Source: Bdellovibrio sp.
Lineage (GTDB): Bacteria > Bdellovibrionota > Bdellovibrionia > Bdellovibrionales > Bdellovibrionaceae
DNA: 64,000 bases
NCBI GenBank assembly: GCA_014376435.1
Contig: JACMRL010000042.1
Location: 1 to 64,000, forward strand
Reading direction: 5' to 3'
The translations under genes were made by a program, and so were the position numbers. Each line of letters begins with the position of its first letter. Position 1 is the first letter of the stretch. Below, piece after piece: positions 51,060 to 60,853 of this stretch. Under the pieces are notes generated by a model. It had not been told where the DNA came from, did not search any database, and worked only from the letters and a program-made list of their open reading frames with translations.

Positions 51060-51365
51060 TTACTTCCAACCCTTAGTCGAGCCATCAATTCGCTGGCGAC
51101 TGCATTTAAAACGCCCTTCAACAAAGGGTCTTTGCGCTTCATGCTTAAGATGACCTTTGTTTGAAGCACGTTCACGCCAGCGACGATAGGCTTTTTCATC
51201 CAGTTGCGTGCGCATAAATTTAATTGTTTCATTCGGAGTTAATCCGAACTGTTCTTTTATGGATTCGAAGGCCGTCCGGTCTTCCCAGGCCATACGCACG
51301 ATACGATCTTTTTCGTCGACCGAGAATTCATTCCATTTTTTTCGGCTACTAGTTGAAATTGACAT
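51060..51365 (-). CDS. TIGR03643 / DUF2805 family protein
   Basis: 101 residues. IVRMAWEDRTAFESIKEQFGL and FMRTQLDEKAYRRWRER match this small basic family, which looks like a helix-turn-helix fold of unknown role. The C-terminus is strongly basic. AAGGA precedes the ATG. It overlaps the membrane gene upstream by 17 nt. Confidence 0.82.
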   Translation of the reverse strand: MSISTSSRKKWNEFSVDEKDRIVRMAWEDRTAFESIKEQFGLTPNETIKFMRTQLDEKAYRRWRERASNKGHLKHEAQRPFVEGRFKCSRQRIDGSTKGWK

Positions 51366-51792
51366 AACTTCCTTGGTGAAGAAAAAAATAAATACTTAAA
51401 CATAGCAAGCGCAAACTCCAAAGCGAAGTTCGAACCCAATTTGTTTTTACTAAACGATGAATTTTTTGAATATCTTGTTTTTTAGAAAGCTCGTTATGAA
51501 TAGGTACACTTAACAAAGCAGTCGCGGACCACAGCGCAATGATCATCAGCAGATTTCCCAGGAAAAAAATATTTTTCAGGTCACTACGAATTAATAAAAC
51601 TGCCGTCGCTAGTTCTAAAAGCATTACTGGAACAACGATAAAAGTAATTCGGTTAGAGTGTTTGGAATGAAACCCGCAAAATTTATCTTCATGCACATCG
51701 GCAAAAGCTGGATAGTGCAAAATTTGAATAACCCAAATCAAACCCACCATGACGGCACAGCTTATGATTTGCAAAAAAAATACTAGCCCCAC
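51349..51792 (-). CDS. Four-helix membrane protein of unknown function
   Basis: 147 residues with GTG start and about four hydrophobic segments. Conserved-looking polar residues occur in ILHYPAF after helix 1 and FHSKHSNRIT before helix 2, with His residues that could bind metal or heme. It overlaps the regulator gene by 10 nt and is probably in its operon. No function is assigned. Confidence 0.7.
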   Translation of the reverse strand: MGLVFFLQIISCAVMVGLIWVIQILHYPAFADVHEDKFCGFHSKHSNRITFIVVPVMLLELATAVLLIRSDLKNIFFLGNLLMIIALWSATALLSVPIHNELSKKQDIQKIHRLVKTNWVRTSLWSLRLLCLSIYFFLHQGSYVNFN

Positions 51793-52256
51793 ATTTCATC
51801 CGAATTCGCTAATAGCTGTAACATTAATTGTGCTCGCTCAATCATGCCGCCCAATTTTTGCTGACGATCTAGATTGATAGGAGTACCAATTTTTGCATCC
51901 TTGGCTAGCTGATCGAAGCTTACTTTTATTTTTGCCAGCATTGGTTTTTCGCGGCGATTTAACACTTGTTTAATCACGTTGGAAACATCTTCCTGTGCGA
52001 TGTAACGTTTGGTTTTTGAATTTTCACTTTTGGTTTCTAAAATAAGCCCCTCGGCCTCAAGCTCTTTTAATGCAGGACTAACGAGGGCTTTGGAGACGTC
52101 CAATAAAAGCACAATTTCTGCGCCGGACAACGCATTCTCCGCTAGGTAAATAGCGGTCCAAATTTCGCCGTGGATCTTTCTAAATCCCCAATACCTAATA
52201 AAATCGCCCACCAGATCAGCTAGGTTAGCTAGCTTTGAATTTGATTGCTTATTCAT
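51783..52256 (-). CDS. MarR/GbsR-like transcriptional regulator
   Basis: About 157 residues from the ATG at 52256. A winged-helix DNA-binding domain (about 20-90) has LSGAEIVLLLDVSKALVSPALKELEAEGLI, the pattern of GbsR-type MarR relatives. A helical C-terminal half probably dimerises. The frame is open to 52292, but earlier starts would lie in the promoter and the palindrome at 52254-52283. It probably represses itself and osmC. Confidence 0.82.
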   Translation of the reverse strand: MNKQSNSKLANLADLVGDFIRYWGFRKIHGEIWTAIYLAENALSGAEIVLLLDVSKALVSPALKELEAEGLILETKSENSKTKRYIAQEDVSNVIKQVLNRREKPMLAKIKVSFDQLAKDAKIGTPINLDRQQKLGGMIERAQLMLQLLANSDEMWG

Positions 52257-52283
52257 ATGGTTCATACTACTATGAACCATATG
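52254..52283. promoter_or_regulatory. Operator palindrome within overlapping divergent promoters
   Basis: Perfect 13-bp arms (CATATGGTTCATA at 52254-52266, TATGAACCATATG at 52271-52283) flank CTAC. Minus promoter: TTGACG (52287-52292), 17 nt, TAGTAT (52264-52269). Plus promoter: TTGCTT (52245-52250), 17 nt, TACTAT (52268-52273). Both -10 boxes lie inside the palindrome, so one bound dimer would block both genes. The regulator ATG lies at the palindrome edge, so its mRNA is probably leaderless. Confidence 0.75.
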
Positions 52284-52294
52284 GAACGTCAATT

Positions 52295-52723
52295 ATGATT
52301 CAATACCCTACCTCGTTTTTTGCAGCTTCTGAAGCCACCAGCGGAATTCAAACTGACTGGTTTTTTGAAAGCCAAAATCAACAAATTAGATGCTCGGTAC
52401 CAACCGAATTTGAAGGCCCTGGCGGAGCACTTTCTCCCGAGGATCTGTTTGCCCAAGCGCTTACGAATTGTTTTGTGGCAACCTTCAAAGTTTACGCAGA
52501 AAAATCTCGGTTAAATTTTAAATCTTTGACCGCAAAATCTGAATTAATTGTAGATCTAAATGAAGAGAAGAAGCCAATCATGAAGCGATTGGTTTTAAAT
52601 GTAGATATTTTCGGAGCCGAAAATCCAGACCGAATTAAGTTTATTGCCCAAAAAGCATTTGAATCTGGATTCATTCTTAATTCGGTTAAGACTGAAGTTA
52701 CGTTTAATTTAAACCTTATCTAA
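52295..52723 (+). CDS. OsmC/Ohr-family peroxide-reducing protein
   Basis: 142 residues from the ATG at 52295, with GGAAC upstream. An OsmC fold with the helix [23 protein letters not shown] carries one of the two reactive cysteines. A second conserved Cys is not evident in the usual place; Cys at about residue 33 (IRCSVP) is the other one present. Peroxidase activity is thus uncertain. It is divergent from the regulator, whose palindrome it shares. Its 3' end overlaps the end of eno by 8 bp. Confidence 0.85.
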
Positions 52724-60109: not shown

Positions 60110-60853
60110 TTTCTGAGTCAGTCGAACCTCGATTTGACTGATATCAACCAAAACGGGAGTAATGATTACTCCCGTTTTTATTGCTAGATCAAAAAGTTTT
60201 TTGTAAGTCGGATCAATATCTTCCGCAATCGAAAATTCTGTCACATCATCCCGTTGAATCGTAAAAATTAACTCGGCCTTATGACCCGCTTTGACTAAAG
60301 CCGTTAATTCTTGCAGATGCTTCTGACCACGCTCGGTCACCGCATCAGGAAATTGCGCGTGCTTTTTACCATTCACTAATTTCATCAAGGTGGTGTTTTT
60401 AATTTCAATATAATGTTTTTTAGATTTTTCATTCAACAAATCTGCTTCGGTTAAACAGAATACTCCATCTAAACGAGTTTCTTTTGAAATCTTATGTTCT
60501 GATTTATAAAAACTGTAAAGCGACCAGTGCGGAAAAAAAGCTTTATTGTCCGCAATCGCTTCTTGCACAATTCGATTTGGGTGAGATGTATTTACCCCAA
60601 CCCATACGCCATCGATTGTTTGCACGGCCTGTAGTGTACCTTTTAGTTTACGCTTTGGATCATCATTCAGCGAAAACCAACAATTTTGAAGTTGTGGTGG
60701 TTTTTCAATAATCGATTTCATACTGCCCGTATTCGGAACATGAATCGTCAGTTTAATTTTTTTGTTATTCTCATCCATGTATTCAACATCAGCAAAAAAG
60801 CGTTTGTATCTTTGAAGAAGGTTTCCCTCGATTAATTTTTTTTCAAATTTCAT
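60092..60853 (-). CDS. sfsA: SfsA family DNA/RNA nuclease-like protein
   Basis: About 253 residues from the ATG at 60853 (AAGG 5 nt upstream; the frame starts at a GTG at 60859). RYKRFFADVEYMDE and HVPNTGSMKSIIE at the N-terminus, GVNTSHPNRIVQEAI, and FCLTEADLLNEKSKKHYIEIKNTT are SfsA features. The last of these is a restriction-endonuclease-like core. The family was named for sugar fermentation stimulation and binds DNA. The exact role is unclear. Confidence 0.93.
   Translation of the reverse strand: MKFEKKLIEGNLLQRYKRFFADVEYMDENNKKIKLTIHVPNTGSMKSIIEKPPQLQNCWFSLNDDPKRKLKGTLQAVQTIDGVWVGVNTSHPNRIVQEAIADNKAFFPHWSLYSFYKSEHKISKETRLDGVFCLTEADLLNEKSKKHYIEIKNTTLMKLVNGKKHAQFPDAVTERGQKHLQELTALVKAGHKAELIFTIQRDDVTEFSIAEDIDPTYKKLFDLAIKTGVIITPVLVDISQIEVRLTQKLLKIN
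60150..60181 (+). terminator. Strong terminator inside the sfsA coding region
   Basis: Perfect 14-bp arms (60150-60163 and 60165-60178, core ACGGGAGTAAT) meet around one base and are followed by TTTTTATT on the plus strand. It should end the dsbA-like transcript about 60-90 nt after its stop. On the minus strand it codes for the TGVIITPVL segment of SfsA. Confidence 0.75.

Follow-up and report, generated by a model that had tools for sequence, protein, structure and literature searches.

The regulator described here has its closest characterized relatives in the GbsR family (GbsR, OpcR, OpuAR, CydE; Mj223). All four family members studied by 2018 are repressors, and a survey of that year sorted the family into osmolyte, cytochrome bd and other-transporter classes and left the remainder mostly unassigned (PMC6207618). 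OpcR has been reported to block access of RNA polymerase sterically, and GbsR of B. subtilis to form a roadblock 3ʹ of the start site (PMC7396694). Family members can thus differ in how they act. None of the known GbsR classes (glycine betaine genes, Opu transporters, cytochrome bd) is tied to photolyases. Genes for photolyase, SDR, FAD oxidoreductase, cryptochrome and FolE are light-inducible in P. mendocina and P. putida (PMC9758184). In Corynebacterium glutamicum, carotenoid genes are controlled by CrtR, a light-dependent, autoregulated repressor of the MarR type that lies divergent to its target operon; crtR homologues in actinobacteria are found near photolyase and lipocalin genes (PMC5401885). 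Lastly, the divergent starts of E. coli bidirectional promoters are commonly about 10, 18 or 23 bp apart (PMC12825309).

We analyzed a 64,000-nucleotide stretch of a Bdellovibrio sp. genome (contig JACMRL010000042.1; “the window”) that contains a palindrome, predicted to be an operator, at positions 52254-52283. Its 30 bp read CATATGGTTCATA-CTAC-TATGAACCATATG, with two perfect 13-bp arms (52254-52266 and 52271-52283) separated by a 4-bp spacer (52267-52270). An earlier note on this DNA had described a perfect 13-bp palindrome at this place, spanning the -10 boxes of two predicted divergent promoters and touching the start codon of a MarR/GbsR-like regulator that is likely co-transcribed with a membrane protein and a DUF2805 gene. 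The palindrome is exactly as described, and the other parts of that description are supported by the evidence set out below. The window has two inverted repeats with perfect arms of at least 13 bp and a spacer of at most 10 (at 52254 and 60150); 40 windows simulated with a first-order Markov model have none. The pattern GGTTCATA-N4-TATGAACC matches once in the window, and the weight-matrix score of the palindrome is 48.0, as compared with 0.9 for the next-best place. The earlier note had also suggested a search for the motif elsewhere in the genome. The 30-mer itself, with up to 3 mismatches, has a single match in the genome and recurs nowhere else, but its core is found exactly at a second site, C21:16569-16598, where it lies in the promoter-like arrangement TTGACG-17-TAATAT. 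With one mismatch allowed, the core matches 24 times in this genome and the reversed control 18 times, so there are no credible sites beyond the two exact ones.

The second perfect inverted repeat in the window, at 60150-60178 (AAAACGGGAGTAATGATTACTCCCGTTTT), has a T-tail and lies 3ʹ of a plus-strand thioredoxin-like gene (end 60091), within the 3ʹ end of a convergent sfsA-like gene. It is probably an intrinsic terminator that overlaps coding sequence.

Is the palindrome conserved? It is also found at the 5ʹ ends of regulator orthologues in related genomes. Using CATATNGTTCATNNNNNNATGAACNATATG with up to 3 mismatches, we found matches in 27 of the 141 genomes of the order, and none with the reversed pattern. 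The core pattern, CATAT-N-GTTCAT-N6-ATGAAC-N-ATATG with at most 2 mismatches, is present in 21 of these 141 genomes (reversed control, 0); on the scale of the phylum it is present in 22 of 369, 21 of which are within the order. With a weight matrix applied to 78 loci, which were mostly picked for the site or the regulator, 76 windows score above 6, and none does in reversed sequence. These observations bear on the possibility that the palindrome arose by chance or is a mobile repeat. That there are just two copies in this genome could be taken in favor of such an origin, but conservation at promoters in several families of the order, with zero matches in reversed controls, already refutes it, and its probability is negligible. 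A mobile repeat was rejected in its own right, as there are only two copies in the genome and both are at promoters. We conclude from the sequences that the palindrome is a genuine regulatory site that Bdellovibrio-group bacteria have conserved and that holds two predicted back-to-back promoters.

The site is associated with one subclade of regulators. Close relatives of the regulator (E up to about 1e-29) are encoded by 30 of the 141 genomes of the order. Core sites are found in 21 of these 30 genomes and in 0 of the 111 others (p=2.6e-18), and among 54 regulators, an operator accompanies 33/33 that have Ser-Pro-Ala in the recognition helix, as compared with 3/21 of those that do not (p=1.4e-11); both counts treat kindred genomes as independent, and both p-values are optimistic because related genomes are not independent and because the E-value and score cut-offs were set after inspection of the data. 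The corresponding segment of the regulator here, SKALVSPALKEL, is encoded at 52059-52094 on the minus strand. Eight of the other 9 subclade genomes have weaker sites with weight-matrix scores of at least 15.9, and the ninth (G067) has one at 10.4. A different, unlinked regulator might bind the palindrome and control photoprotection genes, with the GbsR-like gene as merely one of its targets. Binding by the GbsR-like protein is a prediction, and some sites are far from the regulator gene, as such an arrangement would allow. However, no site with up to 2 mismatches occurs in the order without the regulator subclade, and presence of the operator tracks the recognition helix, which makes an unlinked regulator quite unlikely.

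Several relatives differ from the window in ways that deserve mention. In one genome (G032), a shortened second copy of the regulator gene (L099; G032:C12:11458-11619; an 80-aa open frame) has kept a near-perfect operator beside an adjoining DUF2805 gene. In the same genome, an OsmC-like gene with an internal TGA (L050; G032:C5:48010-48354) retains its upstream site and is probably a decaying target. Two loci (L132 and L160; CALQIT020000003.1 and CALQIT020000012.1) are titled Streptomyces griseus yet match G032, which is of the same family as the window; these records probably represent a mislabelled MAG.

The palindrome encompasses overlapping, symmetric -10 elements, as the earlier note had claimed. 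For the regulator, the predicted -10 box TAGTAT (52264-52269, minus strand; read 52269-52264) lies 17 bp from a -35 box TTGACG (52287-52292, minus strand). For the OsmC-like gene, the predicted -10 box TACTAT (52268-52273, plus strand) has 2 bp, 52268-52269, in common with the opposite box and lies 17 bp from a -35-like box, TTGCTT (52245-52250, plus strand), whose position is kept in relatives. The latter box is weak (3/6 consensus), as is the plus-strand promoter as a whole (TTGCTT/TACTAT, 7/12), and it sits in codons 3-4 of the regulator gene, such that the CAA of Gln4 is, on the other strand, the TTG of the box. This layout is conserved. Across 83 gene-bearing strands of 48 distinct sites, TAnnnT is found at the -10 position on 77, the position of the -35 box is fixed, and the match to a TTGACA-like -35 element peaks only at 17-bp spacing from TAnnnT, with a mean of 3.23/6 as compared with 1.52 at other offsets (z=6.5); removal of near-duplicates gives 3.03 and 1.53, respectively. 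Promoter-like sequence is present on both strands at 26 of the 48 sites and on one strand at 18. Thus, as judged from sequence and spacing, the palindrome is a mirror-symmetric bidirectional sigma70 promoter, with both predicted -10 boxes inside and both -35 boxes flanking. Starts predicted 7 bp 3ʹ of the -10 boxes, at 52257 and 52280, are 23 bp apart. The common -10 region is like that of E. coli bidirectional promoters, and the 23-bp spacing of the predicted starts would be one of those common there; unlike in E. coli, the symmetric promoter here is itself a perfect operator palindrome, and often includes both start codons.

In-frame ATG codons lie inside the palindrome on 51 of the 83 gene-bearing strands, which fits leaderless mRNAs; a Shine-Dalgarno-like sequence is present instead in about half of the other targets. 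Many site-headed genes therefore appear, from their predicted starts, to be leaderless. The first residues that recur among the proteins of relatives (M-x-K-Q or M-K-S-K) coincide with the -35 boxes of the opposite strand.

An inverted repeat could also act at the RNA level, be it as a hairpin, a terminator or a riboswitch. The long perfect arms, which reach 26 bp in one relative, would suit such a role. On the other side, there is no Rfam match and no T-tract after the arms, and the arms carry promoter boxes on both strands; moreover, since the predicted starts are inside the repeat, neither transcript would hold both arms. We rejected an RNA element on the grounds that Rfam gave no match and each transcript would have one arm only, and consider it highly improbable. 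The longest arms, of 26 and 24 bp (L112 in G043 and L105 in G008, respectively), are perfect and far above what a dimer operator needs; their length is partly due to mirrored -35 boxes and first codons that match each other. One arm of the G043 palindrome does not fall within a long gene, a hint that template switching may have corrected the palindrome.

The regulator gene (51783-52256, minus strand) encodes 157 aa. A profile of 19 relatives matches Mj223 (1KU9), which serves as structural template for the GbsR family, with E=1.2e-15 over profile positions 23-151 of 166 and 1KU9 residues 20-147. This match runs nearly end to end, includes the C-terminal part, and identifies a winged-helix MarR DNA-binding domain; it thus supports the earlier assignment to a MarR/GbsR-like group. 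As a single sequence, the regulator matches MarR_2 in Pfam with E=5.6e-5, and none of its Pfam MarR matches reaches the curated cut-off. The likely start codon of the regulator, ATG 52256-52254, forms the end of the palindrome, a contact that had also been noted. The start is uncertain because an in-frame upstream ATG is also inside the palindrome, but the regulator probably starts at the palindrome edge, and its mRNA may be leaderless. Next in the operon are a small membrane protein (51349-51792, minus strand), which has no Pfam or NCBIfam match, and a DUF2805/TIGR03643 protein (51060-51365, minus strand; PF10985 E=9.8e-27, TIGR03643 above cut-off). The regulator and membrane protein genes overlap by 10 bp, and those of the membrane and DUF2805 proteins by 17 bp, as expected of an operon; both genes are 3ʹ of the regulator in several relatives. 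Hence, the co-transcription that had been proposed is likely.

Which genes does the site precede? The second site in this genome, on C21, precedes an operon for the photolyase-related DPRP (PF04244), an FAD-oxidoreductase and a DNA photolyase. In relatives, site-headed operons include genes for DCC (21 loci), DUF2805 (12), the membrane protein family (12), UbiB-like proteins (11), DPRP (9), FAD oxidoreductase (9) and OsmC (12, in two groups), as well as SDR, photolyase, lipocalin, SOUL and FolE. Some of the sites are far from the regulator gene. One genome (G060) has two sites, near 859,855 and 861,189. This gene content, together with the second site on a DPRP/photolyase operon, makes a photo-damage regulon probable, rather than osmotic or peroxide control of osmC. 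The overlap with published light-inducible gene sets and with crtR neighborhoods likewise points to photo-damage as the most likely theme, by association. We therefore regard photo-damage as probably the theme of the regulon, although this is guilt by association, since the recurring SDR, UbiB and OsmC proteins have other roles. Most likely, one GbsR-family repressor switches UV/light-damage repair genes (photolyases and their companions) via the palindrome, as predicted from the sites and their neighbors. A sister subclade of GbsR-like regulators (L012-L030), with SLS or SIS in the recognition helix, lacks the operator; its members often have photolyase, SDR, UbiB-like, methyltransferase or DPRP genes as neighbors. 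Photoprotection may be governed by the regulator family as a whole in this order, with the sister subclade acting via a different operator.

The earlier note had implied an osmotic or peroxide role, which the evidence does not support. Such a role would accept the palindrome as the operator of this regulator but have the regulator answer osmotic or peroxide stress through OsmC, by analogy with OhrR/Ohr. As in OhrR/Ohr pairs, an OsmC-family gene lies directly divergent to that of a MarR-superfamily regulator (the superfamily to which OhrR belongs), both in the window and in several relatives. The OsmC-like protein (52295-52723, plus strand; 142 aa) has an OsmC domain (PF02566, E=6.7e-14, 52.6 bits, cut-off 27.5). 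In contrast to OhrR/Ohr pairs, however, the regulator has no cysteine at all among its 157 aa, and hence none for OhrR-type sensing. The OsmC-like protein is below all Ohr/OsmC subfamily cut-offs (TIGR03561/03562/03563), scoring 31.5 bits for TIGR03561 (cut-off 88.85) and 22.5 bits for TIGR03562 (cut-off 85.8). It has one conserved cysteine, Cys58, and alignment places Gly at the resolving position, where the solved relative VCA0330 has the second Cys of two-cysteine Ohr/OsmC peroxidases; the protein could still be a peroxidase. The regulator scores 14.8 bits against the model of the choline regulator CudC, for which the cut-off is 218. Furthermore, DCC is a commoner partner of sites than OsmC, a photolyase operon carries the second site, and in relatives the subclade and its sites are associated with genes for photolyase, DPRP, DCC, UbiB-like proteins, SDR, lipocalin and FAD oxidoreductase. 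Osmotic or OhrR-type control of OsmC is thus not supported by the sequences, and we consider it unlikely. A short reading frame, MNHMERQL (52272-52298, plus strand), has a TGA stop that overlaps the OsmC ATG (ATGA); it is a possible leaderless upstream ORF. That it is a DCC remnant stays speculation, given that the only DCC-family protein of the genome is encoded elsewhere (C35), at a locus without a site.

How might the site work? The palindrome is probably both a bidirectional promoter and the operator of the adjacent GbsR-family repressor, which would repress its own operon, osmC and the photolyase operon until a photo-damage signal arrives. Because the operator covers both -10 boxes and the spacers, the simplest model is steric repression in both directions, that of the regulator included. 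A repressor dimer lying across these elements would block RNA polymerase both ways and shut the operon for the regulator, membrane protein and DUF2805 protein together with osmC. Through the second site, it would also shut the operon for the photolyase-related protein, FAD-oxidoreductase and photolyase elsewhere in the genome. A signal tied to light or photo-damage would then release the repressor.

This proposed mechanism resembles that of OpcR in blocking polymerase access, and the operator is, like that of B. subtilis GbsR, compared here by description, an A/T-rich inverted repeat with a 4-bp spacer; the divergent promoter layout differs from those of known GbsR systems. CrtR, also compared by description, shares autoregulation and an arrangement divergent to the target, but binds in dependence on TTAA, a short motif within a footprint of 52 bp that has no clear inverted repeat, and controls carotenoid genes. 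LitR/CarH and class II LitR regulons are similar in their light-inducible photolyase, SDR, FAD oxidoreductase, cryptochrome and FolE genes. In contrast, their regulators are MerR-family proteins that bind B12 or are coupled to LOV, and the regulator here has no match to MerR or B12-binding domains in Pfam or NCBIfam. Our literature search yielded neither a description of this operator or regulon nor a paper on control of photoprotection in the Bdellovibrio group.

On the basis of these comparisons, we rate the predicted operator and regulon as a functionally new branch within the known family of GbsR repressors. More tentatively, Bdellovibrionota may possess a GbsR branch responsive to light or photo-damage, in which a mirror-symmetric, often leaderless bidirectional promoter is merged with the operator and the first codons of each divergent gene encode the -35 box of the other; we regard this fuller picture as possible rather than probable. 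The prediction amounts to a complete small regulon for the Bdellovibrio group, with regulator, operator consensus and targets. It offers a clean natural case in which 30 bp are predicted to accommodate two promoters and two start codons as well as an operator. The regulon would also tie poorly known families (DUF2805, DCC and a Pfam-less membrane protein) to photolyases, and would suggest what some GbsR-family members with no assigned role do.
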